Assembly: GCA_025093555.1 (NCBI GenBank)
Contig: JAIWNF010000014.1
Coordinates: 62,001-126,000 of the forward strand
From: Circinella umbellata
Taxonomy: Eukaryota > Mucoromycota > Mucoromycetes > Mucorales > Lichtheimiaceae
Direction of reading: 5' to 3'
DNA length: 64,000 nucleotides
Part shown: positions 1,569 through 26,381 of the stretch, piece by piece
Layout: every line of letters starts with the position of its first letter
How positions within the stretch are numbered: position 1 is the first letter of the stretch
The notes under the pieces: generated by a model
What the model saw: the letters and a program-made list of their open reading frames with translations, nothing else
What the model was told of the DNA's origin: nothing
Database searches by the model: none
Translations under genes and position numbers: made by a program

Positions 1569-2125
1569 GGCATTAGGAGGAGCTTAGTGTTTTATGGTTA
1601 AGTTTCCTGGTATAATTCGTTTCAATGACAACAACAAAAAATGTGGGGAGAAAAAGAGATAATGATCCTGCGGAGCAAAACTGTAGTACTGATTGATTAT
1701 AAACGTGAGAGAATAGAATGCATTTTTTGTCATGTTTTTTATTTTCAAAAATTACTCTTATTCTTGCTATAGTCTTTCTAACCGTCCTCTGAAATTAATA
1801 AATCAAACCGATGGTTTCGAGGTGATATTCTTTATAAGCTCATCTTCCCACTAATTTCTTTTTTCTTTGAAAGTACAATGCAATACGATTTCGTAAAGTG
1901 TGGTCATAATATCGTTGTGGCATATAATTTACCCGGAAATGATGTTATTTTTCACACACTTTGCGAAATAATACATTATATATAAAAGATCAAATAATTA
2001 CTACTATTATTATCACAGACATAATAATTGATTGAACTCTTTTAAAAAGAATGAAAATGAGCAGGTAGTTCAAAGGTTATAAGTCACAGTTATAATGGTA
2101 ACTACTATCGGTGATAGATGTTTTT
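1569..2125. other. Intergenic: PCCA 5' flank and original left flank of the triplicated block
   Basis: No open reading frame of note. The stretch is AT-rich and lies between the PCCA start codon and the left edge of unit A. Units B and C have VPS27 3' sequence at the equivalent place, so this is probably the original single-copy flank. Confidence 0.6.
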
Positions 2126-2317
2126 TTCGTTGGACTGAGTTTTAATCCAATGATAACTTAGCTGAAGGTTCCTCTCTTTTGTTTTTTTCTTCGTAGCAAC
2201 TATTTTCTTTGTTCCCCTGTGAGCAAAGATCATGGGCTTCCATATATACATACAAACAAAAAGTTTGGAATGATTTCGTTGTGTGATTCAGACTTGTACA
2301 ATAATCTTGGTTTTTTT

Positions 2318-2896
2318 CTAACCCTAAACAACAATTATTTTTACATTTTCTTTATTTTCTTTATTGGAAATGAAAATGAGCTTTTTCAACTGCGCGTAGT
2401 GGTTGGATAACTCTGGTTATTTTTCGTTTTTGCGATCATCGGTTTTTCGCCAGAGCATTATAAAAAAAAGAAAAGTATAAAGATCGTCCCTGTGAGTACA
2501 TTTGATCTGTTTTACTTTTAATGTCGCGCGGATTTTTTTCTTGCATGACTTCAATGATTTCATTTTTTTGATTTATTTATCTATTAGGTGAAAGTAATCC
2601 TTTTCAGTTGATTGATAAAAAAAAATTTGGTGTCATAATCAAATCGCAAGAGAATCACGTTACTGTTCGCTACAGGCGTTTGATTCAATCATTGTTAGTT
2701 TGGTATATCCTGTTCGTAACCATGCTTGCGGTGTAGAGAAGCTACAATAATTGGATCATTGACTTTTGAAGAAAGTTATGCTTCTCTTGGGTTTTTTTTT
2801 TGGATGTTGACGGGATATGGAAGCCTGATAATAAATAAAGCTTTTTTCCTCCTCGATGTCAAGGCAGGTCTTCGTCCTGAGGAGGATGGATCCAAT
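2318..2896 (+). ncRNA. Candidate telomerase RNA core, unit A
   Basis: The block has no convincing reading frame. CTAACCCTAA at 2318-2327 would template TTAGGGTTAG, about 1.7 repeats of TTAGGG. An H-type pseudoknot follows: stem 1 CTCTGG 2411-2416 with CCAGAG 2450-2455; U-rich junction 2417-2431; stem 2 GCGATC 2432-2437 with GATCGT 2482-2487 (one G-U pair); A-rich junction 2456-2481. A closed domain at 2750-2896 is held by ATTGGATC/GATCCAAT and contains an 8-bp arm (2847-2854 with 2879-2886) and a weaker arm near 2768-2784, reminiscent of the CR4/5 three-way junction. Known fungal telomerase RNAs have these parts in this order. True ends are not visible. The alternative is a telobox in the TERT promoter with chance pairing. 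The plus strand is chosen from the template sense. Confidence 0.55.
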
Positions 2897-3332
2897 GATA
2901 CTTGTGTGCTTTTTTTTTTTCGAAAAGCATATTAGCATTGGTGAACTAAGACCTTGACAACAATGACAAGAAAAAGTTTGCCTGGAGACGAAGTCGTCAT
3001 AGTAATTTGAAGTCAAGGATAGTGGGTGGTTTAATTTAAGAATGATTGTTTTTTTTTTCTTTTATTCGTGACATTTTTCAAATAAACAAATCGTTGGTAT
3101 TTAATATCATACTTTTAAACTTTAAACTCTTTTATCATTTGACTTCAGTAAGAGCGTCAGCCTATTATCAATGTATATGTTTTTATTGTCGATATGCTCT
3201 TAGAGAAATAATGATTTTCTTGAGGCAACTTGTACATTCGAGAAAAAAAAAATCAAAGTCAGGGCTCCTTTATAAAAAAAGAAAAGTACTGAATGTTATT
3301 ATAGACCGTTTTAACTTTTTGTTTCTTTCATC

Positions 3333-4366
3333 ACGGCTACAGTGAATGAGGCAACGAAAGCCAATAAAAAAAGACTATGACGTTTGGATTTACCCAATCA
3401 CCTTTGACTGTGACATGTTACTGAGATTTAAACAGGTAAGCATAAAGCATAAGAGAGAGAAAAGTTCATACATTATTACTTTATTAGCGTCAATATTAAA
3501 AAAAAGTTATTGGTGTCATGGATTGGTTCAATAGTGTCACATTGGAATATAACTCCAATAATAAAAAGACGTGGGAAAAAAAACAGAAGGAAGAAATTCT
3601 AATGCCAGGAGAAAATATAATGGAGAGTTCATGATTGCGTGTGTGGAGATGAAAATTCTACTTATGTTACTGCTACCAAGAACACTGTTAACAATCGGAC
3701 CATTAATAATGAATCTACCAGTAGTCGAACTATTGCCATTGAATCCAGCGCTATGGAATCGAGTTTATTTGAAGTGATAAGTACGTTTTCGAAAGTGTTA
3801 ACTGTAGCTGCAATAGAATTTAGTATTAACAGATCCAAATTCTATTATAACACTACAAACATTTACAGATAGCAGCAGCAGCAGAAGAAGCAGCAATAAT
3901 CATCTTCTTGAAGACATTCATAAAAACATTAAAATACATGTACCATTGGTGACACCTTTGAGTGTAAAGGGAACAAAAAAGTAAAATGCAACACTCTCTG
4001 TGGCAAAATGGATGTCGAACAATAATATTTAGCTACTTCAACAATATAATCTGGTCAAATATTATATTTACAGTAAGTATGACAAATAGCTAGTTAGTAT
4101 TATCATTTTATTTTTTAAATAGTTATAAGTTCCAACCCATATATAAAATACAATTAATCATTTTACAATAGAATAATCTCGCTACTAGGGGTCATTTCCT
4201 AATTGAGAACAATTAATTTTTTTTGCCTCATACATGTTATCCGGGCCCAATTATCAGGTATAAAAATTGTTCATCATAATATTTTCTTTTATACTTGTTT
4301 GACCATTTATATATATATTGAAGTTGACATTACAGTTTTAACTGTTATATTATATGTTTTTTTTAG
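3333..4366 (+). other. Unrecognised segment replacing the TERT N-terminal exons, unit A
   Basis: Sequence shared with unit B stops at about 3332 and resumes at about 4267. In unit B the same interval encodes the TERT N-terminal domain; here it is unrelated. Short open frames exist at 3346-3534 (starting MRQRKPIKKDYDVW, with a donor-like GTAAGC after LLRFKQ) and 3639-3872 (Ser/Thr/Asn-rich), followed by a CAG/AAG run near 3871. The frames do not join into one readable protein and I do not recognise them. Both versions share CAATTATCAGGT at the right edge, which could be the exchange point. Confidence 0.5.
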
Positions 4367-5959
4367 GTCCGCGTATTAATTTTATAATGGATAGTATTAG
4401 TAATAGTAACAACAAGCAATAACAGGGTTATTCTAGTACCCTGGATATCACCAATACAAACAATTACGCCATACGTCCATCTATCATGCTTCACAATAAC
4501 GATTTTCTCCAAAAACCATCCACATGGATGATGGATACTGCTGTGGAACAATTGAAAATCACCTTTCCAAAAGAATTTGAAAAGGTTAGAGTAATTACCT
4601 AATGTGTTTCTCTGAATAGTTGTTAAATTTTCAGCTGCTTTACAATTACGTAGAAAGGAAAAAAGTTTCCACAACGATTGAGCACTATTGAGAATATTAT
4701 TGAAAAAATCATTCAAAAAAGTGCGAAATCAAAACCAAGAGCATTATTGATTCAGTATTGCCCATACCCAAAGGTACAATTTTGTTATTTTTATCGTTTA
4801 TGTTGGAATAGGAACTTGATTGTAATCTAATTTCTAATGAACATACCTCTATAATATATAATATATTATTATTAGACTGATAGTCCTCTTGACCGGATGG
4901 AGACATCACCCAATCAAGTATGTATAAAAGTTTTTTCTCATTAACATTTGTTGGGTTTCTTTTTTTTAACTTCTCAACATTTTTTTTTCCTTCATAGTTA
5001 TATCAATTCATTCTTGAACAAACGAAACATGTGTTTCCGATTAAATTTTTCGGATCTGAAGAAAACTTCACACATATCTTAGCACGTATGTATATATTAT
5101 TATTAATAACAGTGCTTTAACAAAAAAAAATGCATTTATTTATCAATAAACATGTTATAATATTTAGTTGTGAAGAAAGTATAAAAGATTGGAAAACGAG
5201 AAGTACTATACTTACCTGATATGCTCAAAGAATTTGATGTAAGTTATCATAATAATAATATTAGAGTGATAGAATATGTATTAAATCAATCATTTATCTA
5301 TACTGTAATAATATTAGTTAACGGTGTGTCAATGGCTTAAACCACCACGAGATCCAAACACTATGGATCGCGGTCAAGACGAAATCAACAAAGAAAAGCA
5401 ACTTTTATATCAAGCTATTGCGTGGTTTATTCACAATTATGTTTTCAATTTGATCAAGGTATTAATAACAGACAAATTGTCCCGATTGATTTGCATCATT
5501 ATTCAATTTGTGACATTTGATTTAATGTCACCATTACTGTTATTATTTTAGTCATATTTTTATGTAACTGAAGCAAGTACCACAAGTAATAAAATTGTTT
5601 TTTTCCATGCGAATGTGTGGAAGAAAAAATCCATGGAATTGGTTAAAGAACTTCTCACTGATCAGCGATACGAAAAGGTGGATTCTACTGTAAGTTATAA
5701 TAAAACAAATATTTAACTATATATATAACTAATTCTTAAAGTACATTAACAAATGAATAAAATAGTCAAATACATCTTCAACAGCAAAGATCCGATTTGT
5801 CCCGAAAGGAAAAAATATTAGAATTATTACAGACATGGTAAATACATTTGTTTATTTTATATAATACTAATGCCCGTAGATCAGATTTTTTAAGCTAACT
5901 TTAAATTAATATTTATGTAGTCGAATATCAATCGACGCAACAAGTCAAAACTTCATAAG

Positions 5960-6176
5960 GTGTATCCTGACTTAAACCGTCAAAATATGGGGTGCAATAA
6001 GAATTGACAAAAAATTGTCAGAAATAAAGCTATAAACATTTTGAGCCCCAATATACAGTATGTTAATTGAAGTATTCTGAAGAAATGTTACGGAACAGTT
6101 TTTTAAAAAAGACATTTTTCGTCGAGATTTGTCACTTCAAAGTTTTGTCAAAATATGGTATTTTACTAAGTAAAAG
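5960..6176 (+). other. 217-bp GT-AG intron-like insertion in TERT, unit A
   Basis: It sits exactly between AAG and GCA codons of the exon after motif 2. It begins GTGTATCC and ends TAAAAG. Unit B reads straight through (AAGGCATTAAAAG), so the segment is absent there; unit C has it at 30024-30240. GTCAAAATATGG occurs near both ends (5979-5990 and 6147-6158) as a direct repeat. It is either a gained intron-like element or an intron cleanly lost from unit B. Confidence 0.75.
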
Positions 6177-6966
6177 GCATTAAAAGTTATTGATTATGAA
6201 CGAAGTCGTAAGCAATTCGAATCTGTTGGTAAATCGGTAACCAATTCATTGGATCTTTTTGAAAAGCTTTCAAATTATAAATCAAACATTTTTAAGAACA
6301 TCCCTAAAGAGTAAGTATCAAAAGTAACGGGTTTCGTATACTGTATATGTATTTGTAATATATACATAGTAACAATTACAATTATATCTGTAGTCAAGCA
6401 TTACATTTTGTAAAAACAGATGTTATGAGCAGTTTTGATTCTATTGATCAATGCTTACTCTTGGAGATCTTGAAAAATACTTTAGAAAAGGTTGGTAGTA
6501 TATATCAATTAAAGCTATAATAATTGCTTATTAAAATTAGTTAGACGGTAATAATGGTAAATATGCGTGTACGAGTTAGAGTAAGAGAGACTACTAACAA
6601 ATATTCAACAAAATGTAGCAATACAATTACAAGTCATTTGTCACTACATACAGTCGATCTGGTAAAACCAGGTGGAAGTCTGAGTTATGTGTAGAAACAC
6701 CTAGTAAGTAGTTTTAAATCTATTATTTGAATAAAATAGAATGATATTATGTCAAGGCTAACAAACAATCGATTCAATAAAAGGTACATCTTCATCATCC
6801 GAAAAAGAAATACAAAAATTAGCAGAAAAATTTACTCAGTCTATTTGGATTGAAGGTGTAAGTTTATATCATTATTATTCTTATATGTTGATGAAAAAAC
6901 TATTCGTATTATTGACTGAATAACTGACTTTTTTTTTAAACTTTATCTGTTTATATATAATTTTTA

Positions 6967-9443
6967 GGGTAGTGCTACCTGTGCGATTTTTTTCTCGCTT
7001 GTTTTAAATTGTAGTGGTACAGCGCAAACAGTCATAGCCAATCCTCTAGTGATATTACCAGTACGACTTCTCTTACTAAACATACTTCATTAAGACTCTA
7101 TACATTTTTTTCCTCTACGTATAATAACTTCTCATGAATGATATTCGTTTTGATTAATTCTACACTATTGAAACGAACCTACTAAAATTAATACGTAATA
7201 TAGAATATACGTATAAATTTTTACTGTTCATTGATGATAACCTATCTACAGAAAGAAGATAATATTCTTGAATTTTTTGATTAAAATGGCTTTATTGGTG
7301 CGATTTTTCATTTTTTTTTAGAAAAAAATTACAAGTGCGCCCTTATCCGTGCGATTTTTTTGTCTGGGCGTAAAATATGAGAAAAAGCTGTGCGATTTTT
7401 TTTTTCACTTCTAAATGGCATAGCTAACAGTTTATTTGATAATGTAAAAGTAGTCTACCAAAATATATAATATAAGAACTTATTGATTATGACTAGTTAT
7501 TAGCACCAACTTGCTCGCATATTATACACAAAAAACAGATAATGCACTTGGATTATTTGATTAAAAACGGCTTTATTGGTAGTGCGGTGCGATTTTTTTT
7601 ATTTTTTTGAAAAAATTACAAGTGCTTTTCCGTGCGATTTTTTTTCACTTCTAAATGGCATTGCTATCAGTTTATTGACAATGTAAAATTAGTCCACTAA
7701 AATATAATATAAAGGTATGTCGATTATGACTAGTTATTAGCACTGACTTGCTCAATATTATTCACAAAAAAGAAGATAATACTCGGGTTATTTGATTAAA
7801 ATGGCTTTATTGGTGCGATTTTTTTTTAGAAATGATCTCCATGACTACATTCGATTTAACTTAATATTTTACATATTTCTTATAGTGTAATGTTCCAAGC
7901 CAAAACCGTATAAAACAATAAGTTGACTATATCCATTTGTAAATTCATTTTAATGGGAAAATAGTGGATATAGAGTTTTCCGTCTGAAGCCACGTGTGTC
8001 AAAGCGAGTCAAGAATCGTCTATTTTGGTGCTCAACAGAGGTGCAACTGTATAAAAGCAGAGTCTGTCACTAGTCATTTATGCTATCTATTTTCGAATGT
8101 ACATCACCAAACTTCATCTTATATGGGAAATGTGTAGCAAATTTTATATAATTCTGGAGCTTTAAACAGCACAACACTAATCAACAAAAATAGAAAATAT
8201 CGTTTAAAAATGTTCTCATGGCTCATGGGCAGCATAACTCCTGGTACAGTACTTCTAACTACATTTACCTGACCGTGGATTAAGTACATGATGGGCATAA
8301 AGGTGGTCAGTAAATTAGGTAGGAACTTCTATAGTTATGTTGCTATGATAGTACGTAATTGTGTCAATATCAAATAATAAATAGATACTGACTGGTGATA
8401 CATATTTACAGAAGGAGCAGGTTGTAAAACAAATGAAGGTCAGAACGTTTTGCTTTATTTCTTGTGGAACATTTGCCAGGAAATGTTGTTTCAAGAATGG
8501 ATGAGCACGGTTCATTTTGTCGATCAGAAAATTCGAAATCATTTTTCTGATCATACGTACGTATGCATGTCAATTAACAATACTTCAAGTTAGAGGGACA
8601 TCAAACTAATTATGTTTTTACTTTATGTGTCTCCTATCTACAATGATGCAACTGTTTTCTGAAGTAGTTTGAAGAATACTCAATAAAATGTAGAAGATAA
8701 TATTATTGATTGTTGCTATATTGAAACCATTGTATTATCGTTGATAAGATCGACAAAATAATAATAAAATATCAAATAAATATATGTTGTTAATAAGATA
8801 ATCCACGAACAGTGAGTTAGAAAAAAATCGCACCAATAAAGCCATTTTAATCAAATAACCCAAGAGTATTATCTGTTTTTTGTGTATAATATGCAAGCAA
8901 GTTGGTGCTAATAACTAGTCATAATCAATAAGTTCTTATATTATATATTTTGGTAGACTACTTTTACATTATCAAATAAACTGTTAGCTATGCCATTTAG
9001 AAGTGAAAAAAAAATCGCACAGCTTTTTCTCATATTTTACGCCCAGACAAAAAAATCGCACGGATAAGGGCGCACTTGTAATTTTTTTCTAAAAAAAAAT
9101 GAAAAATCGCACCAATAAAGCCATTTTAATCAAAAAATTCAAGAATATTATCTTCTTTCTGTAGATAGGTTATCATCAATGAACAGTAAAAATTTATACG
9201 TATATTCTATATTACGTATTAATTTTAGTAGGTTCGTTTCAATAGTGTAGAATTAATCAAAACGAATATCATTCATAAGAAGTTATTATACGTAGAGGAA
9301 AAAAATGTATAGAGTCTTAATGAAGTATGTTTAGTAAGAGAAGTCGTACTGGTAATATCACTAGAGGATTGGCTATGACTGTTTGCGCTGTACCACTACA
9401 ATTTAAAACAAGCGAGAAAAAAATCGCACAGGTAGCACTACCC
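6967..9443. mobile_element. Long-inverted-repeat (foldback-type) element in a TERT intron
   Basis: The 2,477-bp element is flanked by the 8-bp direct repeat AATTTTTA (6959-6966 and 9444-9451). Units B and C have a single AATTCTTA here. Termini are GGGTAGTGCTACCTGTGCG inverted, and the inverted repeats extend roughly 610 bp inward on each side (about 6967-7575 and 8822-9443). Inside, a box AATGGCTTTATTGGTGCG followed by a T run recurs in tandem near 7287, 7569 and 7801 and in inverse orientation near 8822 and 9105. No transposase is readable. The 8-bp target duplication would suit hAT-like or Merlin-like mobilisation, but the family is not assigned. Confidence 0.9.
8210..8594 (+). other. Possible exon-like reading inside the foldback element
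   Basis: The unique core (about 7840-8820) has a TATAAAAG-like box near 8050. A start is possible at 8210 (MFSWLMGSITPG). After an acceptor-like TTTACAG at about 8406-8412 an open stretch reads CKTNEGQNVLLYFLWNICQ and continues to a stop near 8594. No family is recognised. It could be a captured gene fragment or chance. Confidence 0.2.
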
Positions 9444-11149
9444 AATTTTTAGCCTAATCATACATCTCAAAATAGCGAAGAATTACTTCAATTGATTGCT
9501 GATCATATTCAAAACAGTGTTACCAAAGTCTGCTATTTTCTTTCTTTTTTTCTTTCTAACAATTACTTAACTAATCAATATAACATATTGCAAAACACTG
9601 CTTCTTAGATTCAAGGTAACAACTATCGACAAACTATTGGAATTCCACAAGGATCATGTTTGTCAACTATGCTCTGTGATCATTTTTATACACAAATGGA
9701 AAATGAGTGTTTAGAATTCATTAAACACGACCCAAATGCTGTAAGCCTTTTTTATTATTTTTATAATTTTATTTTGCAGTTATTTGTTTATACAATATAC
9801 TGATATATATAATCATCTATTGCCAATGGTAACTAATTATTTCTTTTCTTTATACTAATTTTATCATTAGTTGCTGCTTCGATATGTTGACGACTTTTTG
9901 CTTATTACACCTAATGCTACTACTATCAAACAATTTTGTCTTTTTATTGAACAAGGTTTGAGATATTATATGATTTAGTATAATACTTCCTTTTTTTTCC
10001 TTCTGTCTTGTATAGCTTTTATAAATAACATTTTTCTGATTTATTAGGCAAAAACAATTATGGAGTAAGATTTAATCAAGCAAAATCAGCAACGACTCTT
10101 GAAGATATGAATCACATTCCATTTTGGAATGAATCTGGTACCTTATTTCCTTTTATTTTATTTCTATTTTGCAAACTATTTAACATATCTTGTTACAATC
10201 ATTTCCCGCATAATACGTACGTACTGAACTTTATCACTATTAAATGAATTTGTATTTAGAATTATCATGGTGTGGATTAAACATCAATACCAGTACTTTG
10301 GATATCTGTTCGGATTTCTCAAGATATAGAAAGAACAGTACGAATATACATATATTCCTTTGAAATATTTGAATTAACAATGTCAGATCAAATTATGATG
10401 TGCGGCTAACATGTATATTTATCTCTCTTCTATTATTTCATCATTCAGATATGCGTGATTTGATGACTTTAAAATCTGTTTCTTATTATAAGGATATTCA
10501 ACGACAAATAACCCAGTAAGTATAAGAGAGAGAGAGAAACCAAGCCTCTAGATTCTGCATTACTGTATATATGTAAATGAAGAAAATACTATACTAATGA
10601 TCTTCATACATCTTTTTTTTTTTTTTTTTTTTGAAAAAAAAAGAACTATGAAAACAAAACAAACTCGACTTTTGGTTGATGTTGACTTTAATGCAAGAGA
10701 TACCATTTACCGAAATCTATTTGAAGCTTATTTACTTTCAGCTTTAAAATTTCGTATCTATGTTCGACAATTGTTTATGTATAATAAGAAAGTTTCCTGG
10801 AAAATTATATTCAGTAAAGTGTCATTATATATATCAAGTTATCTTTTTTTTACGTTGTATGATACATAAAATACTAATTGGAGAAACTGTTTATATATAC
10901 ATATATATAGAAACTTTATTACAGGCACAAAAAGAAACATCATCAAGGCTATCACCATACTTGAATCATTCCAGTATACGTATTTTATTCCTATACGCTT
11001 TTTGCAAAATTCTCAATCGGAAACGTAAATCATTTGGGACTTTGTTAAAGCTTTTAGAAAATGAATTGAGAAAACAAAAACTATCGAGAAATGTTAAAAG
11101 AATGATTGTAAACTGGCCTTCATGTAGTTTAATCAATTTACCATTGTAA

Positions 11150-11889
11150 TCTATTATCAATTCTATTTCCCGGTATGTAACACCCCCGGGTCATTTCTTA
11201 TTTCAAGTAACCCAAGTCATATGACGTGTCTTATATTCTTATACCTATCAGACTCCTTTTTGTTTTTGTTTATCATCATATATCAGATATAATATCCAAA
11301 GAAAAAGGAATCCCGATCATTATAATAAATAAATTGAGTTTTTTTTAACCCCCCCCCTTCAAGACATTTAAATTGGGTACAAATTTAAGCAAACAGAGAC
11401 TTTTTGTAGTATAAATTATAATGTTTTATTTAACGGCACTATACGTATCCTTATCAAGAATCAGCAAAAAATACATATGATTATATAATTATACTAGTAC
11501 AATAATAAGTGTTAGAAGTTTTTTTCTTTGTATAAAACTATAATAAATGAGAAGATATTGTCAGCGTTCCTCAATTCAACTACGCACGTATTATATCGAT
11601 ACGTATCAAAAAGCAATGTTCTCATTTATGTACTATTTATTATTATCGCTTGGCGGTTATTATATATCATATTGTATACGTAATTAAATAACGCTTGAAT
11701 GCTAATAATATAGAAGAAGAAAATATCAATATATCTACCGTGTATGATACAATTATATATAAAAGAGGTTGTATATTTTATTGAAAGAAATACTGTAAAA
11801 TATTAATAAAAAAAGTGTGGGTGTGACGGATAGATAGAAAAGTTGTATAATAACATAGTGACATACAAAAATCATATGATTTAATAAAA
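11150..11889. other. Intergenic between TERT and dioxygenase pseudogene, unit A
   Basis: The two genes converge here. The DNA is AT-rich with a C9 run near 11350 and several short palindromic TACGTA-type words. No gene is supported. Unit C carries an almost identical stretch and unit B a diverged one. Confidence 0.5.
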
Positions 11890-13084
11890 TTATGATTTGA
11901 TTGGGGTAGCAAGATTGTAAATAACAGCCCCTTCACCTAATAAACAAATTAATGTTATATAATAAGTCAAGTAATGAACACAATAAGTAAAGAGAACACA
12001 ATAACTTACTATAGTCCTTTCCCTCTTCACGTTCATACGATGGAGGGAAAAGATTTCGTTTTTCAGCGTAATAGTGATTACGCATATCACCTTCACGAGC
12101 TGCATTATAAGTCAAATAAACAGCAATTCTAGAATTACGTATTGGTATTGTTATTACCAGATCGATGAGCAAGATAAGCACCAAAAATAAGGACAGATCC
12201 CTAAATAATAGACAAGAAGTTGATAACAAGGGAAAAGAAAGAACATGTATATATTAGCATTTTGGTTTTTTTTTTTTACTTAGCATTGCGCTATATACAC
12301 ATTATTTAGTTGAACAACAGCAGCTCTGCTGCTAGTAATAAAAGTAATGAACGTCATACAGGTTGTAAATAAATAGGTTTCCACTCTTGTTTATTACACC
12401 AATCGACAGCAATAGATCCATCATGTTTTTCTTGTGGTAAAATTCCGCGTTCAAATTGGTTTTTATGTGATCCAGGTACAACTTCTAGACAGCCATTTTC
12501 AGCAGTAGTAGGATCAATAGTGAACATAACAGTCATATGAGAAGATTGACAAAATTGAACAAAAGCAGGAGCATCTTGATGAGCAGGAAATCCTATTAAT
12601 ATTATATATAATTATTAGCCATTGTCGTTACATAACAATTAGGTAAGCTATTACATGAATAGATATATAATATTTTCTTTCATTCAAGAATAACAAATTT
12701 CTTTAGCATACGTACCTCTACCACCGGGAAAGTTTATATTTGACTTTTTCTTTGAACAATTATATTTTTCATTGTGAAGCTTTTCCAAAACATCTAAAAG
12801 TCTTTGACTTTTAACATAACCAGACATGGCTTCATGAAATGGAGTAAAATTTTCGGTACGGAATAGCTGATTTTCACCGGAAACAGTATTGGTTTCATAA
12901 TATTGCATCCATTTACCCTTTTCTTTACCCCAATTTTGGAGCTCATGACAATAATTTGTTAAAGTTTAATGTTCTTGAATAGAAAGAAATCATTGATCAT
13001 CAAATATCCATTTTCTTTATAAGATTCAAGTTGTTCGGTAGATAAGCCATAGGGTTGAGTATTCTGTACAGAAGAATTAGTCAT
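11890..13084 (-). pseudogene. Phytanoyl-CoA-dioxygenase-like (PhnY/TmpA-like) pseudogene, unit A
   Basis: This is the counterpart of the intact unit C gene at 33466-34650. The start codon (13084) and the segments encoding MTVMFTIDPTTAENGCLEV and the C-terminal ATPIKS are still readable. The codon pair for QA in the intact copy (CAAGCT) reads TAAACT here (near 12967-12972), giving an in-frame stop about 40 residues in. Small indels around 12720-12770 also shift the frame near the first-exon donor. It probably encodes no enzyme. Confidence 0.8.
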
Positions 13085-13848
13085 TCTTAATTGATTAATT
13101 GGTTTGATCTTTGTTAAGTAGTAGTAGTGCTGACAGGTCGACTTGGTAATGACTTGAGTTTGTTTGTTTTACTACGTATAGAAACAAAAGGGAAAAAAAC
13201 ATCAAATTCCAAAGTTTATATATTATGTAAAATATAGAAAATACAAACCAATAAATAAGCAAATAGTGTAAAAAAATATCAAGAAAACATCGTTCCTCGG
13301 AAGCGCTCGCTTGAAGCGATTCATGTTGTGTAAACAATTACATAAGTTTGTGTTCTCACGAACCTGCGCAACATAGAGTACATAACAGATCTTTTGCAGG
13401 ATACCTTTAAAAAACTGAATATAAAGAGGGGGCCTAGAACTTTTACTCAGGAACGTAAAAAAAAAGATGACTAGGTAGATATTATACGAATCCACGTGGC
13501 ATCGAAGAATGTCCAAACTTATTATCATCATGGGAAGAAGAAAAGGTAGAAAATCGATAATGATAATGCCTCACAGAGAAATAGAGACTGAAGATAGACA
13601 CTGTATAAAGAAGGGCTGATGACGATTTGTACAATGATAACATCAGAACTAAATCAGGTAAAATTGTACAAAAGCTTGTATATTCCCTAGTTTGAATCCC
13701 TGAAAATTACGTGCCATTCCGCGGAACCAGTTCAAAAAGCCCCTTATAAGGGTTCCCCTTTAATGTTATTAATCAAATGAATAACATATTTTATATCGTT
13801 GCCTTCATTTGCTAATTATAACAAGATATTTACTCCATATACAAAAAA
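13085..13848. promoter_or_regulatory. Divergent intergenic region, unit A
   Basis: It lies between the two pseudogenes and is homologous to the unit C promoter at 34651-35429. It keeps CCACGTGG (near 13493), TTCCGCGGAA and CCTTATAAGG (near 13740). Conservation of these three words in a copy whose genes are broken may only reflect recent duplication. Confidence 0.45.
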
Positions 13849-14750
13849 ATGAATTCTGAAATTTCAAATCAAGTTGTTGATACTGTATTCAAAGTTCTTA
13901 TCGATGGAGGCAGTAAACAAGATTATATTGGTGAAAAAATTTCCCAACTTGAACATAGTCTTCAAGCTGCTGTTCAAGCATTAGAGACCAGTAACGTATT
14001 TTTATTGTATTATCATCAATAATTATATGATACTAAAAAGACCTATACTATTATGCTAAAACTATTTCTATAGAGGCAGATAATGAAACAATATTGGCGG
14101 CACTTTTGCATGATATTGGTCAGTTTGCAACATCTGCCGATCAAAAACAATGATGTTCTGTGATACTTCTGCGCTCGCAGAACTAGAGCCAACAAATTCT
14201 ACTACCACTTCTCCCAATTCAACCATTAGTGTTGGAGTCACTGGCCATGAACGTATCGGTGCTGAATATCTCCGCAAACTAGGATTTTCGAACAAAGTGG
14301 CTCAACTAGTTGAATCACATGTACCGGTCAAACGTTATCTAACAGGAAAGGACCATAGTTACTATGAAAGTTTAAGTGGCGCTAGTAAACTATCTTTAAA
14401 GTATCAGGTAAAGCCTCCATCATTGACTTTTATAAATCATACCATCAGTGTTTGCTGGAATGTGTTTTAGCTATAGCAGTGGATATATATATATATATAT
14501 AATATAAGAAAATGTATACTGTAGTAGAATATGAGACGAACTGACTGACCCATTTATACACTATAATTTATTTATCTAGGGTGGCCCATTTAAACCAGAA
14601 CAAGTGCAAGAGTTTGAAGAAGATCCTTTATTTGAATTAAAAGTTCAAGTCCGGAAATGGGATGATGCTGCTAAAGTGGTTGGTCTTGAATTACCTGATC
14701 TTGAATCATATCGACAAATGGCTGTGGACCATCTTATGAACAAAAGATAA
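13849..14750 (+). pseudogene. PhnZ/TmpB-like HD-domain oxygenase pseudogene, unit A
   Basis: This is the counterpart of the intact unit C gene at 35430-36358. The first exon (MNSEISNQVV...), the HD box LHDIGQ and the later iron-ligand region are recognisable. After GCCGATCAAAAACAA the reading hits TGA (near 14151): unit C has AAATGATCTGTG, while this copy has AATGATGTTCTGTG, a net two-base change that breaks frame. Downstream the protein resumes in another frame (starting MMFCDTSALAELEP). The C-terminus is also altered (HLMNKR then stop). Unit B has the same lesion. Confidence 0.85.
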
Positions 14751-14963
14751 AGTAGCAGCTACATTAGCATAATTAATTTACAATAAATAATAATAAGTTG
14801 TAGAGTATTTCCTAGTACATGAATAACATGTGACAGTTTAAAAAAAATACATAAGCACGTTTTTATATTCAAGAGACAAAAAACATAATATAAAATGGAT
14901 ATTTGTATTGATATATATGATAAAGAAAAGTAGAAAAGAGAAAAAAATAGGTACGTAGATTTA

Positions 14964-15550
14964 TTATAGATCAATCAAAGGTGCTTCTTCAATAGGTTTT
15001 GATTGTTGGACTGGTTGCTGAGGTTGGGATGAAGGAGGTGTTGGGGTATGATTAGGAACAGAAGGGTACATGGGTTGTTGGGGTTGCTGTGGTTGTTGTG
15101 ACAACTGCGGATAAGGTTGTTGAAATTGCTGAGATTGTTGATGTGTATATTGAGATTGAGAAATGTTTTGGATAATTGGAGGTTGAACAGATTGTTGCTG
15201 CTGTTTAGGTACTGGTGATCCAGTGTACGTAGCCATATTTTTGTGGTTGTTCGGTTTGATAAGGATATGACACAGGTGGTGCATTTGGAGCACCATTATG
15301 AGTTAATGTGGAATATGTGGATGGATAATTGTTGGTAGGAGGTTGCATGGTAGGGTACAAAGAAGAAACAGGCTGCTGTTGTATTGGTGAAGTAGGCGTG
15401 ATAGGGTATTGAGCTCCTGCATGATTTTGAGTCCCTGTTGAAGAAAAAGTTCCTCGATTATAAGAATTTGCTACTCGTTGCTAAAGTAATTGATTATATT
15501 TTTTTAGAGACATATTCAATTTTTCATGCAGCTCAGCAAATTTTTCTAAG
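14964..15550 (-). pseudogene. VPS27 3'-end fragment, unit A
   Basis: Only the last exon of VPS27 is present, cut at the duplication breakpoint inside KFAELHEKL. It is Gln/Pro-rich and ends [12 protein letters not shown] to TAG change (LLQQR region, near 15483) and a frameshift near 15235 (ATATTTTTG in place of GTATTGTTG) break it relative to the complete gene at 36579-39146. Confidence 0.85.
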
Positions 15551-15752
15551 TGGATTATAATTCGTTGGACTGAGTTTTAATCCAATGTTAACTTAGCTGA
15601 AGGTTCCTCTCTTTTGTTTTTTTCTTCGTAGCAACTATTTTCTTTGTTCCCCTGTGAGCAAAGATCATGGGCTTCCATATATACATACAAACAAAAAGTT
15701 TGGAATGATTTCGTTGTGTGATTCAGACTTGTACAATAATCTTGGTTTTTTT

Positions 15753-16331
15753 CTAACCCTAAACAACAATTATTTTTACATTTTCTTTATTTTCTTTATT
15801 GGAAATGAAAATGAGCTTTTTCAACTGCGCGTAGTGGTTGGATAACTCTGGTTATTTTTCGTTTTTGCGATCATCGGTTTTTCGCCAGAGCATTATAAAA
15901 AAAAGAAAAGTATAAAGATCGTCCCTGTGAGTACATTTGATCTGTTTTACTTTTAATGTCGCGCGGATTTTTTTCTTGCATGACTTCAATGATTTCATTT
16001 TTTTGATTTATTTATCTATTAGGTGAAAGTAATCCTTTTCAGTTGATTGATAAAAAAAAATTTGGTGTCATAATCAAATCGCAAGAGAATCACGTTACTG
16101 TTCGCTACAGGCGTTTGATTCAATCATTGTTAGTTTGGTATATCCTGTTCGTAACCATGCTTGCGGTGTAGAGAAGCTACAATAATTGGATCATTGACTT
16201 TTGAAGAAAGTTATGCTTCTCTTGGGTTTTTTTTTTGGATGTTGACGGGATATGGAAGCCTGATAATAAATAAAGCTTTTTTCCTCCTCGATGTCAAGGC
16301 AGGTCTTCGTCCTGAGGAGGATGGATCCAAT
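15753..16331 (+). ncRNA. Candidate telomerase RNA core, unit B
   Basis: The sequence is nearly identical to the unit A block: template CTAACCCTAA at 15753-15762, pseudoknot at 15846-15922 with the same stems and U-rich/A-rich junctions, and the closed domain ending at about 16331. In this unit the block is followed directly by the TERT start codon at 16797, so the native spacing between core and TERT is about 470 bp. Confidence 0.55.
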
Positions 16332-16796
16332 GATACTTGTGTGCTTTTTTTTTTCGAAAAGCATATTAGCATTGGTGAACTAAGACCTTGACAACAATGA
16401 CAAGAAAAAGTTTGCCTGGAGACGAAGTCGTCATAGTAATTTGAAGTTAACGATAGTGGGTGGTTTAATTTAAGAATGATTGTTTTTTTTTTCTTTTATT
16501 CGTGACATTTTTCAAATAAACAAATCGTTGGTATTTAATATCATACTTTAAACTTCAAACTCTTTTATCATTTGACTTCAGTAAGAGCGTCAGCCTATTA
16601 TCAATGTACAATGTATGTTTTTATTGTCGATATGCTCTTTTAGAGAAATAATGATTTTCTTGAGGCAACTTGTACATTCGAGAAAAAAAAATCAAAGTCA
16701 GGGCTTCTTTCCAAAAAAAGAAAAGTACTGAATGTTATTATAGACCGTTTTAACTTTTTGTTTCTTTCACCCCACTTACTCCAACGGAGGTCAACA

Positions 16797-19700
16797 ATGT
16801 CAAAATACCCAAGTCATTTCAAAAAGTTTTTTAAAAATATATTAACGATCGATCAATATCTTTTTCAGACATTCAACATTGATTTAAAAGATGTGGATTC
16901 TATGGTTGATCAAGAAGTACTTCAAAATAGAATCGTAGATCGTATTGTCATTGGAATTCCTTATTTAGTTATGGAGTATGGAGGTACAGAGGATCCCCGT
17001 TAATTTCATATCCGTTAATTTTCACACCCCAATAACTTCATAAAAAATGAAGGAAAGGTAAAACTAACATAAGAAAATTTTCACATCCTCCTTAATTTCA
17101 CTTTCACAGCACTTGGCGGCATTGAATCCTTAACGGATATGTAAATCAAAAAAAATTATGTGATAAATATAAGGATTGTAATTAAATTAGTATACAGGAT
17201 GGGTTACTTTTTTTATTACGCCATTTGCATGTTTTTTATGAAAGGTTTACTCAATGTTTATTTTCTTCTTGTTTTTCTCGTTTCAAGTTTTTGCATATAG
17301 TACTGATATCAGGTGCCTTAAACAGCTTGAATTCATTTTTAGCCCATCATGATAGCGATCGGTTTGTCATGGTTTCTGGGTTAAGTTTTTTTTTTTCTCA
17401 GTCAGAATACTATACTGTTCAGCTGCCAAGCCAACGTTAGATTCGGTTCCTGTCATTTTATTTTGGTATGTATAAAGCAAAAATATAGAAAGATGAAAAG
17501 AAAATAAATTATCTCTGCACTATATATAACTGTTTTCAAAAGCAAAAAAAGTGTTATAGACGTGCTCAAATAAAAAAAAGAAGTAGTTACAAAAATGCAT
17601 CAAGAACAATCGTATAAAAATAACTTATTAATTAATACGTATTATGATACAATAAAAGATATACAGTAATGAGCTGAAGTATTCAATATATGCACATTCT
17701 TGGAGAAAAACTTCATAGTATCCGTTAATTTTCACACCCCTTCATTTTCACAAAAAAAATGGAAAATGGCCCTATGAAATTAACGGGGATCCTCTGTAGT
17801 ACTTTTAATTATGGGCAGGGCAGTATCAGTAGTAGCAATAAAAGAAAATCTATGAACGAAGTATGTATATAAGTGTTTATGTGTGTAAAGAATTATGGAT
17901 CGCTTTTTTTTTTGTTATTTTTTTCATGCATAATAGTAATAAGATTAAATATGTATAAGCTTATCAATGAAATTCGATGTGAAATACTTACTGCACGTAA
18001 AGGTTCGGAGCATATGTTAAAATCTGGTGCTTATTTAGTAAATATTTGAATTTTTCCTTCACTGATAAAAGTGTAATCTTATCAAATATATTAAAAACAG
18101 CGCAAACGTATTCATCCATCAATATATTTTATTATAATAATAGAGCTTGGATCGAGATCATTCAAACAAAAGGATTATCATGGAAAAAATGCCAAATACT
18201 ATTATTAATGAATTATTAAACCATGAATGGAATATATTGTTAAAATGGTTAGTAAAAAAGAAAAATTACGTGTAATGTTTCTTTATCATATTTACCTCCA
18301 ACTGATATGTTCCCGTCCGCTTTTTTTTTCATAGTATTGGAGAAAAAGCCATGAGACAATTGATAACAAACATTGTATTGTTTGTAGGAGTTTCAAATGA
18401 TAATTACTATCAATTATCAGGTTCATCATAATATTTTCTTTTATACTTGTTTGACCATTTATATATATATTGAAGTTGACATTACAGTTTTAACTGTTAT
18501 ATGTTTTTTTTAGGTCCGTATTAATTTTATAATGGATAGTATTAGTAATAGTAACAACAAGCAATAACAGAATTATTCTAGTACCATGGACATCACCAAT
18601 ACTAGCAATTACATCATACGTCCATCTTTAATGCTTTACAATAACAATTTTTTCCAAAATCCATCCACATGGATGATGGATACTACTGAGGAACAATTGA
18701 AAATCATTTTCCCAAAAGAATTTGAAAAGGTTAGAGTAATTACCTAATGTGTTTCTCTGAATAGTTGTTAAATTTTCAGTTGCTTTATAATTACGTAGAA
18801 AAGAAAAAAGTTTCCACGACGGTTGGACACTATTAAGAATATTATTGAAAAGATCATTCAAGAAAATGCTAAATCAAAACCAAGATCATTATTGATCCAA
18901 TATTGCCCATACCCAAAGGTACAATTTTGTTATTTTTATCATTTATGTTGGAATAGGAACTTGATTGTAATCTAATTTTTGATGAACATACCTCTATAAT
19001 ATATAATATATTATTATTAGGCTGATAGTCCTCTTGACCAGATGGAAACATTACCCAATCAAGTATGTATAAAAGTTTTTTCACATTAACATTTGTTGGG
19101 TTTCTTTTTTTTAACTTGCCAACATTTTTTTTTTCCTTCATAGTTGTGTCAATTCATTCTTCAACAAACCAAACATGTGTTCCCGATTGAATTTTTTGGA
19201 TCCGAAGAAAACTTCAAACATATCTTAGCACGTATGTATATATTATTATTAATAATAGTGCTTTAACAAAAAAAAATGCATTTATTTATCAATAAACATG
19301 TTGTAATATTTAGTTGTGAAGAAAGTATTAAAGATTGGAAAAAGAGAAGTAGTATACTTACCTGATATGCTCAAAGAATTTGATGTAAGTTATTATAATA
19401 ATAATATTAGAGTGATAGAATATGTATTAATCAATCATTTATCTATACTGTAATAATATTAGTTAACAGTGTGTCAATGGCTTAAATCACCACGAGATCC
19501 AAACACTGTGGATCGCGGTCAAGACGAAATCAACAAAGAAAAGCAACTTTTATATCCAGCTATTGCATGGTTTATTAACGATTATGTTTTCAATTTGATC
19601 AAGGTATTAATAACAGACAAATTGTCCCGATTGATTTGCATCATTATTCAATTTGTGACATTTGATTTAATGTCACCATTACTGTTATTATTTTAGTCAT

Positions 19701-22580
19701 ATTTTTATGTAACTGAAGCCAGTACCACAAGTAATAAAATTGTTTTTTTCCATGCCAATGTGTGGAAGAAAAAATCCATGGAATTGGTTAAAGAACTTCT
19801 CACTGACCAGCGATACGAAAAAGTGGATTCTACTGTAAGTTATAATAAAACAAATATTTAACTATATATATAACTAATTCTTAAAGTACATTAACGAATG
19901 AATAAAATAGTCAAATAGATCCTCAACAGCAAAGATCCGATTTGTTCCCAAAGGAAAAAGTATTAGAATTATTACAGATATGGTAAATACATTTGTTTAT
20001 TTTATATAATATCAATGCGCGCAGATCAAAATTTTTTAAGCTAACTTTAGATTAACATTTATGTAGTCGAATATCAATCGACGCAACAAGTCAAAACTTC
20101 GTAAGGCATTAAAAGTCCTTGATTATGAACGAAGTCGTAAGCAATTCGAATCTGTTGGTAAATCGGTAACCAATTCATTGGATCTTTTTGAAAAGCTTTC
20201 AAATTATAAATCAAACATTTTTAAGAACATCCCTAAAGAGTAAGTATCAAAAGTAACGGGTTTCGTATACTGTATATGTATTTGTAATATATACATAGTA
20301 ACAATTACAATTATATCTGTAGTCAAGCATTACATTTTGTAAAAACAGATGTTATGAGCAGTTTTGATTCTATTGATCAATGCTTACTCTTGGAGATCTT
20401 GAAAAATACTTTAGAAAAGGTTGGTAGTATATATCAATTAAAGCTATAATAATTGCTTATTAAAATTAGTTAGACGGTAATAATGGTAAATATGCGTGTA
20501 CGAGTTAGAGTAAGAGAGACTACTAACAAATATTCAACAAAATGTAGCAATACAATTACAAGTCATTTGTCACTACATACAGTCGATCTGGTAAAACCAG
20601 GTGGAAGTCTGAGTTATGTGTAGAAACACCTAGTAAGTAGTTTTAAATCTATTATTTGAATAAAATAGAATGATATTATGTCAAGGCTAACAAACAATCG
20701 ATTCAATAAAAGGTACATCTTCATCATCCGAAAAAGAAATACAAAAATTAGCAGAAAAATTTACTCAATCTATTTGGATTGAAGGTGTAAGTTTGTATTG
20801 TTATTATTTTTATGTGCTGATGAAAAAGCTACATTATTGACTGAATAACTGACTTTTTTTTTAACTCCATCTGTTTATATATAATTCTTAGCCTAATCAT
20901 ACATCTCAAAATAGCGAAGAATTACTTCAATTGATTGCTGATCATATTCAAAACAGTGTTACCAAAGTCTGCTATTTTCTTTTTTTTTCTTTTTCTAACA
21001 ATTACTTAACTAATCAATATCACATATTGCAAAACACTGCTTCTTAGATTCAAGGTAACAACTATCGACAAACTATTGGAATTCCACAAGGATCATGTTT
21101 GTCAACTATGCTCTGTGATCATTTTTATACACAAATGGAAAATGAGTGTTTAGAATTCATTAAACACGACCCAAATGCTGTAAGCCTTTTTTATTATTTT
21201 TATAATTTTATTTTGCAGTTATTTGTTTATACAATATACTGATATATATAATCATCTATTGCCAATGGTAACTAATTATTTCTTTTCTTTATACTAATTT
21301 TATCATTAGTTGCTGCTTCGATATGTTGACGACTTTTTGCTTATTACACCTAATGCTACTACTATCAAACAATTTTGTCTTTTTATTGAACAAGGTTTGA
21401 GCTATTATATGATTTAGTATAATACTTCCTCTTTTTTCCTTCTGTCTTGTATAGCTTTTATAAATAACATTTTTCTGATTTATTAGGCAAAAACAATTAT
21501 GGAGTAAGATTTAATCAAGCAAAATCAGCAACGACTCTTGAAGATATGAATCACATTCCATTTTGGAATGAATCTGGTACCTTATTTCCTTTTATTTTAT
21601 TTCTATTTTGCAAACTATTTAACATATCTTGTTACAATCATTTCCCGCATAATACGTACGTACTGAACTTTATCACTATTAAATGAATTTGTATTTAGAA
21701 TTATCATGGTGTGGATTAAACATCAATACCAGTACTTTGGATATCAGTTCGGATTTCTCAAGATATAGAAAGAACAGTACGAATATACATATATTCCTTT
21801 GAAATATTTGAATTAACAATGTCAGATCAAATTATGATGTGCTGCTAATATGTTTATCCATCTCTCTTCTATTATTTCATCATTCAGATATGCGTGATTT
21901 GATGACTTTAAAATTTGTTTCTTATTATAAGGATATTCAACGACAAATAACCCAGTAAGTATAAGAGAGAGAGAAAAACCAAGCATCTAGATTCTACATT
22001 ACTGTATATATGTAAATGAAGAAAATACTATACTAATGATCTTCATACATCTTTTTTTTTTTGAAAAAAAAAAGAACTATTAAAACAAAACAAACTCGAC
22101 TTTTGGTTGATGTTGACTTTAATGCAAGAGATACCATTTACCGAAATCTATTTGAAGCTTATTTACTTTCAGCTTTAAAATTTCGTATCTATGTTCGACA
22201 ATTGTTTATGTATAATAAGAAAGTTTCCTGGAAAATTATATTCAGTAAAGTGTCATTATATATATCAAGTTATCTTTTTTTTACGTTGTATGATACATAA
22301 AATACTAATTGGAGAAACTGTTTATATATACATATATATAGAAACTTTATTACAGGCACAAAAAGAAACATCATCAAGGCTATCACCATACTTGAATCAT
22401 TCCAGTATACGTATTTTATTCCTATACGCTTTTTGCAAAATTCTCAATCGGAAACGTAAATCATTTGGGACTTTGTTAAAGCTTTTAGAAAATGAATTGA
22501 GAAAACAAAAACTATCGAGAAATGTTAAAAGAATGATTGTAAACTGGCCTTCATGTAGTTTAATCAATTTACCATTGTAA
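16797..22580 (+). pseudogene. TERT: Telomerase reverse transcriptase, unit B (N-terminus kept, exon 1 interrupted)
   Basis: This is the only copy with the N-terminal (TEN) region: MSKYPSHFKKFFKNIL at the start, then small exons near 17945-18037, 18144-18247 and 18335-18420. The last gives IGEKAMRQLITNIVLF and NDNYYQLSG, matching the TERT pattern IGD..(V).LL...VF....YLQ(V)SG. Later exons follow the unit A structure (18799-18918, 19463 onward) and all reverse transcriptase motifs are present. The T-motif exon is open (KKVLKIGKREVVYLPD) where units A and C have a stop. Problems: an 810-bp element in exon 1 that introduces stops, a 2-base deletion after GGTCCG (18514-18519), and the same CAATAACAG stop as the other units. 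The first exon boundaries (17860 donor) are uncertain in phase. Confidence 0.82.
16987..17796. mobile_element. TA-flanked terminal-inverted-repeat element (Tc1/mariner-pogo type MITE)
   Basis: Terminal inverted repeats are CAGAGGATCCCCGTTAATTT and its complement, about 24 bp in total. TA duplications are at 16985-16986 and 17797-17798. The word TATCCGTTAATTTTCACACC appears just inside the left end and again near the right end in the same orientation. There is no transposase; the ORF at 17225-17440 resembles nothing known to me. Removing the element plus one TA restores an open TERT frame (GGA GGT AGT ACT TTT). Confidence 0.9.
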
Positions 22581-23321
22581 TCTATTACGTATCAGTTCTA
22601 TTTCCCGGTTATTTCTCTTTATAAATAATTCAAGTCATATGACGCATTTTATATTCTTGTACCTATCAGATTCTTTTTTATATTTTATTTATCATCATAA
22701 ATATCAAATATGATTCCCAAAGACAAACGAATCCCGATCAGTATGGTAAATTAATTGAGTTTTTTTAACAAAAAAAATCCAAGACATCTAGTTTACCTAT
22801 GTATAAAATTGGGTACAAATTTAAGCAAACAGAGACTTTCTGTAGTATAAATTATTATGTTTTGTTTAACGGCACTATACGTATTCTTATCAAGAATCAA
22901 CAAAAAATACATATGATTATATATTGTCCTACAATAGTAAGTGTTGGAAGTTTTTTTTCTTTGTATAAAACTATAATAAATGAAAAGATCTTGTATAGCG
23001 TTCTTCAATTCAACTACGCACGTATAATATCGATACGTATCAAAAAGCAATTTTCTCATTTATGTACTATTATTCCTTGGCAGTTATTATATATCATATA
23101 GTATACGTAGTTAAATAACGCTTGAATACTAATAATATAGGAGAAGAAAATATCAATATATATAATAAATATGATACGATAATATATAAAGAGGTTGTAT
23201 ATTTTATTGAAATAAATAAATCATTATTTTAAAGAAATGTGGGTGTGACGGAGAGATAGAAAAATTGTATAATAAAGTAGTGACATACAAAAATCATATG
23301 ATTTAATAAAGTTATGATTTG
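22581..23321. other. Intergenic between TERT and dioxygenase remnant, unit B
   Basis: Diverged counterpart of 11150-11889. An opposing pair of roughly 90-100 codon frames (22793-23059 and 22799-23101) overlaps on the two strands. Neither is kept in units A or C, so I do not call a gene. Confidence 0.5.
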
Positions 23322-23794
23322 ATTGGGGTAGCAAGATTGTAACTAACAGCCCCTTCACCTAATAAACAAATTAATGTTATATAACAAGTCGAGTAATCAA
23401 CATAATGAGTAAAGAGATCACAATAACTTACTATAGCCTTTCCCTCTTCACGTTCATACGATAGAGGGAAAAGTTTTCGTTTTTCAGCCTAATAGTGATT
23501 ACGCATATCACCTTCACGAGCTGCATTATAAGTCAAATAAACAGCAATTCTAGAATTATTGGTATTGTTATTACCAGATCGATGAGCAAGATAAGCACCA
23601 AAAATAAGGACAGATCCCTAAATAATAGACGAGAAGTTGATAACAAGGGAAAAGAAAGAATATGTATATATTCGCTTTTTGGTTTTTTTTTTACTTAGCA
23701 TTGCGCTATATACACATTATTTAGTTGAACAACAGCAGCTCTGCTGCTAGTAATAAAAGTAATGAACGTCATACAGGTTGTAAATAAACAGGTT
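23322..23794 (-). pseudogene. Dioxygenase 3' remnant, unit B
   Basis: The last two exons of the PhnY/TmpA-like gene and a few codons of the preceding exon remain. The sequence then jumps, at AACAGGTT/TTACTACATA, to what is promoter sequence in the other units. About 0.7 kb, including the start codon and the HxD iron-binding exon, is deleted. Confidence 0.85.
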
Positions 23795-24475
23795 TTACTA
23801 CATATAGAAACAAAAGGGAAAAAAACATCAAATTCCAAAATTTATATATTATGTAAAATATAGAAAATACAAACCAATAAATAAGCAAATAGTGTAAGAA
23901 AATATCAAGAAAACATCGTTCCTCGGAAGCGCTCGCTTGAAGCGATTCATGTTGTGTAAACAATTACATAAGTTTGTGTTCTCACGAACCCGCGCAACAT
24001 AGAGTACATAACAGATCTTTTGCAGGATACCTTTAAAAAACTGAATATAAAGAGGGGGCCTAGAACTTTTACTCAGGAACGTAAAAAAAAAGATGACTAG
24101 GTAGATATTATACGAATCCACGTGGCCTCGAAGAATGTCCAAACTTATTATCATCATGAGAAGAAGAAAAAGGTAGAAAATCGATAATGATAATGCCTCA
24201 CAGAGAAATAGAGACTGAAGATAGACACTGTATAAAGAAGGGCTGATGACGATTTGTACAATGATAACATCAGAACTAAATCAGGTAAAATTGTACAAAA
24301 GCTTGTATATTCCCTAGTTTGAATCCCTGAAAATTACGTGCCATTCCGCGGAACCAGTTCAAAAAGCCCCTTATAAGGGTTCCCCTTTAATGTTATTAAT
24401 CAAATGAATAACATATTTTATATCGTTGCCTTCATTTGCTAATTATAACAAGATATTTACTCCATATACAAAAAA

Positions 24476-25379: not shown

Positions 25380-25592
25380 AGTAGCAGCTACATTAGCATA
25401 ATTAATTTACAATAAATAATAATAAGTTGTAGAGTATTTCCTAGTACATGAATAACATGTGACAGTTTAAAAAAAATACATAAGCACGTTTTTATATTCA
25501 AGAGACAAAAAACATAATATAAAATGGATATTTGTATTGATATATATGATAAAGAAAAGTAGAAAAGAGAAAAAAATAGGTACGTAGATTTA

Positions 25593-26179: not shown

Positions 26180-26381
26180 TGGATTATAATTCGTTGGACT
26201 GAGTTTTAATCCAATGTTAACTTAGCTGAAGGTTCCTCTCTTTTGTTTTTTTCTTCGTAGCAACTATTTTCTTTGTTCCCCTGTGAGCAAAGATCATGGG
26301 CTTCCATATATACATACAAACAAAAAGTTTGGAATGATTTCGTTGTGTGATTCAGACTTGTACAATAATCTTGGTTTTTTT

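Follow-up and report, generated by a model that had tools for sequence, protein, structure and literature searches.

A candidate telomerase RNA gene with a template for TTTAGGG, immediately upstream of a triplicated TERT gene in Circinella umbellata

The window analysed here (the whole stretch of DNA, 64 kb in length, within an 858-kb contig of the 50.8-Mb assembly) carries a TERT gene, and the question that this locus raises is whether the block immediately 5' of it encodes the telomerase RNA. A first-pass annotation had proposed this on the basis of a template, a pseudoknot and a CR4/5-like domain lying in that order. We find that the half of the proposal concerned with the template and the pseudoknot is best read in this way, on partly other grounds, and that the CR4/5 half is without support. 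Our preferred reading, to which we give a probability of about 0.65, is that the block represents a TERT-linked telomerase RNA gene of a Mucorales-like fungus, because the template fits a telomeric repeat that the earlier annotation did not know of, a rare pseudoknot follows it in the right order and on the right strand, and both are linked to the only TERT found. From these features we infer that the block is transcribed and that the resulting RNA, with the approximate ends given in Table 1, binds TERT, possibly also through a second TERT-binding domain, and functions in telomere synthesis.

Table 1. Features of the candidate telomerase RNA locus and of the adjoining TERT gene (window coordinates)
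Feature	Position	Strand	Remarks
Candidate telomerase RNA, unit A, approximate extent	2154-3148	+	Putative; ends approximate
Candidate template CUAACCCUAAAC	2318-2329	+	The 2320-2329 part, AACCCUAAAC, matches (CCCTAAA)n
Pseudoknot stem 1, CUCUGG 2411-2416 / CCAGAG 2450-2455	2411-2455	+	Also in three MFE folds
U-rich junction (loop 1) UUAUUUUUCGUUUUU	2417-2431	+	DNA letters TTATTTTTCGTTTTT
Pseudoknot stem 2, GCGAUC 2432-2437 / GAUCGU 2482-2487	2432-2487	+	One G-U
A-rich junction (loop 3)	2456-2481	+	
Stretch with diverged paralogue on contig 145	2466-3173	+	About 65% identity; genome search and alignment
Proposed CR4/5-like closed domain, 8-bp closing stem ATTGGATC/GATCCAAT (2750-2757/2889-2896)	2750-2896	+	Foldable, not above chance
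Sm-like AUUUUUCA	3073-3080	+	Weak, by eye; well conserved 3' stretch
Possible incomplete-splicing 3' end: GUAUUU 3097-3102, branch-like UUUGAC 3138-3143, CAG 3146-3148	3097-3148	+	Weak, by eye
Unit B copy, template	15753-15764	+	
Unit B copy, pseudoknot	15846-15922	+	Same sequence
TERT exon 1	16797-16985	+	Found in unit B only; interrupted by inverted-repeat element
TERT core exons, unit B: RNA-binding domain, RT motifs, C-terminal extension	18613-22580	+	
Unit C copy, template	26382-26393	+	

The assembly presents a unit of 11-13 kb in three head-to-tail copies (A, 2126-15551; B, 15561-26180; C, 26190-37165), each of which starts with the candidate block and continues with TERT on the same strand; the proposed position upstream of TERT was borne out in all three copies. 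In unit B, 1,044 nt separate the start of the template from the TERT ATG, and the gene preceding the block in the window, on the opposite strand, is a biotin carboxylase. The identity of TERT is clear: a hand-spliced protein of 705 aa from unit B matched the Pfam families Telomerase_RBD (8e-29) and RVT_1 (4.2e-12), with TERT_C just under the cut-off. The closest of the 69 proteins found was the TERT of Lichtheimia ornata (32%), and the others included TERT matches from Mucor, Mortierella, basidiomycetes, ascomycetes and animals. The designation Mucorales-like was derived solely from the TERT protein. When the genome was searched with the RNA-binding domain (eight candidates scored), these three places were the only ones listed. 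By eye, no copy has an evidently intact TERT frame in this assembly. From 2154 to 2909 the three units do not differ at all; beyond that, A and B diverge at scattered places, and A and C remain identical as far as 6838. In their TERT segments, A and B show 2.4-6.4% difference. Since the unit B block lies in a 3.6-kb stretch that is 99.1% identical to unit C, the agreement among the copies is a weak argument for constraint, and recent conversion or duplication may explain most of it.

The candidate template reads CTAACCCTAAAC in DNA letters. Its part CTAACCCTAA (2318-2327), annotated earlier and confirmed here in letters and coordinates, is a 10-nt exact piece of (CCCTAA)n, and the overlapping AACCCTAAAC (2320-2329) is a 10-nt exact piece of (CCCTAAA)n. 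AAC stands at both ends of the latter, 7 nt apart, which gives an alignment repeat of 3 nt and is what a processive template for TTTAGGG needs. The telomere of this genome is known from one contig end: a 7-mer pattern search showed that contig 99 ends in TTTAGGG, with 17 units within positions 13720-13845 of its 13,851 and the G strand outward. That array contains no TTAGGG unit, and two or more tandem TTTAGGG units were found nowhere else in the assembly. Contig 99 is most likely part of this genome, because pieces of it, 54-131 bases long, have matches of 78-100% at 11 places distributed over 10 other contigs. The outermost 300 bases of 19 contig starts and of the end of contig 46 held no three exact copies of any 5-12-mer, and generic 6- and 7-mer patterns yielded TTGTGG microsatellites, all of them contig-internal, and the TTTAGGG end of contig 99. 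As in telomerase RNAs, the template is longer than one repeat of the telomere of the same species, as known from that single end, and it contains a direct repeat for realignment. Next to this telomere, at contig 99:12221-13851 (L085), subtelomeric arrays of GATGGCCGTYAGGCCATCC, GGCCAGTCGCCTTCGGCGAAAGA and GGGGGGACTAAGAT units precede the TTTAGGG run.

The earlier annotation had assumed TTAGGG telomeres and a template read as CUAACCCUAA. This arrangement would agree with CTAACCCTAA being equally an exact piece of (CCCTAA)n, with the TTAGGG telomeres given for Mucor (PMC11258239), and with the statement in PMC7952879 that TTAGGG is widely conserved in Mucoromycota. Against it, the 50.8-Mb assembly contains no (TTAGGG)3, the one telomere-like end consists of TTTAGGG, and Umbelopsis nana is reported to have AAACCCT repeats at its ends (PMC13042297), so that we hold a TTAGGG template with TTAGGG telomeres to be highly improbable. 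The same annotation had named telomeres other than (TTAGGG)n as grounds for discarding the candidate. Taken to the letter this is what the one contig end presents, and it does not refute the candidate, because the template also encodes TTTAGGG.

The template word alone proves nothing, because three other, unrelated places in the genome carry the full 12-mer. The 101.6 Mb of both strands contain 90 occurrences of AACCCTAAAC, of which 16 belong to the telomere array, 3 to the candidate copies and 71 to other places; for CTAACCCTAA the total is 33, three of them in the candidate copies. Within the window, 10-mers of (CCCTAAA)n or (CCCTAA)n are found at the three candidate copies only. Taking some 13 registers of either repeat together, each at a rate of about 0.5 per Mb of strand, one would expect about 0.007 template-like words in each kb of a single strand, a figure that is post hoc and to be discounted.

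The second element is the pseudoknot. At 2411-2487, 3' of the template and in the same form in all three units, two stems interlock to form an H-type pseudoknot whose junctions are U-rich and A-rich; the pairings CTCTGG/CCAGAG and GCGATC/GATCGT of the first-pass annotation proved right in letters and coordinates. In addition, UUUUU at 2443-2447 is able to pair with an A-run within 2462-2475, beside stem 1; human telomerase RNA has a comparable U/A arrangement with U-A.U triples. A pseudoknot with such junctions, 3' of the template and rare in the background, is at the sequence level what a telomerase RNA presents. At strict settings it was found in none of 1000 shuffles and in none of 484,400 background strand-bases (some stretches of which overlap). 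At a moderate setting (6-bp stems with at least three G or C, loop 1 at least 50% U and loop 3 at least 45% A), 477,374 strand-bases of background without overlap contained 6 pseudoknots, that is, 0.0025 per 200 nt; looser settings gave 49 (at least two G or C in 6-bp stems) and 225 (5-bp stems), the counts before overlap removal being 8, 52 and 231. All settings were chosen with the candidate known, and these rates are thus post hoc and to be discounted. The candidate is positive at all three. We also scanned 55 other template-like sites, namely 28 AACCCTAAAC sites and 27 of the 30 other CTAACCCTAA sites, three of the latter holding both words: none had a pseudoknot with 6-bp stems within 250 nt, and five had one at 5-bp stems. 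The joint occurrence of template-like word and pseudoknot is more than chance.

These counts bear on the possibility that the telomerase RNA lies elsewhere and that the block is a decayed or passenger copy, or a member of some other non-coding RNA family with a second member on contig 145. The scan covered 31 of the 71 other AACCCTAAAC sites and 27 of the 30 other CTAACCCTAA sites, the genome-wide word search covered these two repeat registers, and the family has two loci whose common part, described below, excludes the template, all of which leaves some room for it. We consider it quite improbable, given the 0 of 55 alternative sites with 6-bp stems (5 of 55 with 5-bp stems) and the template and pseudoknot that stand unchanged in all three copies.

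The nested fold of the pseudoknot segment has -12.8 kcal/mol, compared with -8.0 and -4.2 for the stems alone, and about equals their sum; we counted this against the candidate. In the MFE fold of 2154-3110 a helix (2313-2319/2469-2475) stops just before 2320 and leaves AACCCUAAAC unpaired, while two shorter folds differ. A predicted helix ending there would suit the 7-mer reading of the template; it is part of a longer helix around it (2295-2319/2469-2500), some letters of which also belong to stem 2. Across three ensembles the 12 template letters are on average unpaired at 0.62-0.64, as against 0.39-0.47 for the average letter, and the AACC of the template is unpaired only about one third of the time in all three, which was again counted against. 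The global fold stability of 2154-3110 (z = -2.2) was rejected as evidence, because among 16 control segments four fall below this value and a fifth comes to -2.14.

As for the CR4/5 domain, the 8-bp stem that closes it has the letters and coordinates described earlier and is not clearly above chance. Of 500 shuffles of 2500-2910, 317 contain one or more helices of 8 bp. The number of such helices, with overlapping runs counted, is 11 in 2500-2910, reached by 1 of 500 shuffles, and 16 in 2330-3100, reached by 2 of 500. The local MFE fold of 2700-2910 includes the closing stem (the centroid all but one of its pairs) and, with z = 0.21, is no better than shuffles; the stem is absent from the MFE fold of 2154-3110. 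P6.1-like hairpins numbered five, with 5.3 expected by chance. The claim stands unproven, because neither the local fold, nor the P6.1 scan, nor the MFE fold of the longer RNA gives it support, and the three-way junction finds none in the contig 145 paralogue either.

Telomerase covariance models rarely reach new clades. The check with such models, which the earlier annotation had suggested, turned out negative: Rfam gave no match at gathering score in the 64-kb window, and the eight matches up to E = 10 in 2100-3360 included no telomerase family. The contig 145 locus (L007, 1240-2600), searched permissively, returned nothing relevant. The longest ATG-started frame on the sense strand of 2150-3150 has 46 aa; on the minus strand a stop-to-stop frame of 101 codons (2756-3061) was counted against the reading as an RNA gene.

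The strongest point against a telomerase RNA is the diverged paralogue at contig 145:142699-143111, minus strand (L007, 1501-1913), the single further relative returned by the genome search. By eye, it lies between a transposase-like frame on its upstream side and a choline-kinase-like gene on its downstream side, and it has the direction of the latter. Its identity to the block is uneven, with 0.77 and 0.82 in 60-column windows from 2780 and 2795 and 0.73-0.77 in those from 3024-3064, and its most conserved words are GACRTTTTTCAAATAAACAAATCRTTG and TTATCATTTGACTT. The sense strand of the 2.7 kb around it holds no 7- or 8-mer of either telomere repeat, and so no template. No pseudoknot was found there at the moderate setting; a loose setting gave one AU-rich match without U-run, just 5' of the shared part (background at that setting, 0.02 per 200 nt). 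Paired folding of the block and the paralogue revealed no overall covariation, and the energy z was positive in 16 of 21 windows, the lowest being -1.61. Six compensatory pairs in 2825-2974, reached by 3 of 60 shuffles, come from the best of the 21 windows and were not counted as support. Either the paralogue is an old copy of the telomerase RNA gene, truncated at its 5' side, or what the two loci have in common is something else.

The most obvious such alternative takes the block to be the TERT promoter and 5' leader, or some other regulatory stretch upstream, in which the template word and the pseudoknot are coincidences of AT-rich DNA with T- and A-runs. It would account for the place of the block directly 5' of TERT in unit B and for a paralogue that also lies 5' of another gene, in the same direction, and retains only the part from about 2466 onward; telomere-like 10-mers found tens of times genome-wide and the lack of overall covariation fit it as well. 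It would have to leave to accident both the coincidence of template and pseudoknot in the right order and on the right strand, each of them rare by chance at such a site, and the match of the template to the 7-nt repeat of the one telomere-like contig end, and we consider it unlikely.

If the block is a telomerase RNA gene, as we prefer, each unit would carry it immediately 5' of TERT and in the same direction, and its RNA, of about 1 kb between putative ends, would present the template 5'-AACCCUAAAC-3'. The telomere 3' end ...GTT would pair with the 3' AAC of the template, TERT would copy the remaining template so that TAGGGTT is added, and the new GTT would realign on the 3' AAC, generating (TTTAGGG)n. 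The pseudoknot just 3' of the template, with its U-rich and A-rich junctions, would keep the template positioned in the active site, which is the role of such pseudoknots in other telomerase RNAs. A more specific proposal is that RNA and enzyme come from one linked unit, the telomerase RNA being the 5' part of the TERT transcription unit or sharing its promoter region, and that a Mucorales fungus whose telomeres are of the plant type, TTTAGGG, has triplicated this whole unit in head-to-tail order; this we regard as unlikely.

Telomerase RNAs change very fast, and the vertebrate pseudoknot is known to have a U-rich loop 1 and an A-rich loop 3. The candidate shares with vertebrate telomerase RNA the pseudoknot topology and a stem 2 able to end in U-A pairs beside stem 1. 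Vertebrate RNAs also have an H/ACA domain and P6.1 (for the domains, see PMC8480181); neither has been demonstrated in the candidate, whose template serves a different repeat length. According to PMC3603654, Aspergillus TERs likewise are long non-coding RNAs with a CCCUAA template core followed by a U-rich/A-rich pseudoknot, and Sm-like and splice-like 3' motifs like those of filamentous-ascomycete TERs are conceivable in the candidate. The same paper describes a covariation-supported three-way junction with p6.1, whereas no P6.1 was found in the candidate, which also has a 7-nt telomere repeat, and it places the A. oryzae TER gene between those for Zpr1 and a TATA-box interacting protein, while the candidate adjoins TERT. 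For the basidiomycete Ustilago maydis, PMC10035886 reports a ter1 whose pseudoknot is CS3/CS4-like and whose Sm-like site reads AAU5-6CY, to be compared with the candidate pseudoknot and AUUUUUCA. The ter1 transcripts begin on the upstream side of a protein-coding gene, which may parallel the TERT linkage proposed here; the neighbour is UMAG_03168, downstream of which ter1 lies, and not TERT, and ter1 has a P6.1-like element (PMC10035886).

The first-pass annotation knew of no telomerase RNA from this part of the fungal tree and of no TER-TERT pair. Among the matches listed in the open-licence literature we likewise found no established telomerase RNA from early-diverging fungi, including Mucoromycota and Mucorales, and no described case of a TER adjoining TERT or of a TTTAGGG-linked telomerase RNA in Mucoromycota. 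That statement needs one amendment, for a weak suggestion exists for Lichtheimia corymbifera, of the same genus as our best TERT match (PMC4133162). In that paper the L. corymbifera candidate is described as near the shortest ciliate RNAs (150 nt in Tetrahymena paravorax) and as having no homologues in other basal fungi; we set it beside our block by description only. If our reading is true, a gap that separates the ascomycete, basidiomycete and animal RNAs would be filled by a Mucorales RNA that combines a vertebrate-like pseudoknot with a template for 7 nt, and if TER adjoins TERT, reading upstream of TERT could find the RNA in other Mucorales.

Some minor observations concern the insertions in the triplicated unit and the surroundings of the template. 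In unit B, TERT exon 1 is broken up by an inverted-repeat element (16985-17799; ends CAGAGGATCCCCGTTAATTTC and GAAATTAACGGGGATCCTCTG) that by eye is of mariner/pogo-like type and shows an apparent duplication of TA, and a related element is upstream of the contig 145 paralogue (L007, about 2410-2600). Where unit B has TERT exon 1, unit A (3331-4268) and the equivalent part of unit C have unrelated sequence. The TERT of unit A is further split by a 2.5-kb insertion (6967-9443), the inverted ends of which are 97% alike, with short repeats around TGTGCGATTTTTTT. A TERT exon of units A (5960-6174) and C (equivalent position) contains an insert of 214 bp, and unit B lacks this insert. By eye, it starts with GTGTAT and ends with AAAAG, exactly between AAG and GCA, and on this account it could be a newly gained intron. 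Finally, CCCTGTGAG, closely followed by GATC, occurs twice (2215-2223 and 2488-2496), flanking the template and the pseudoknot.
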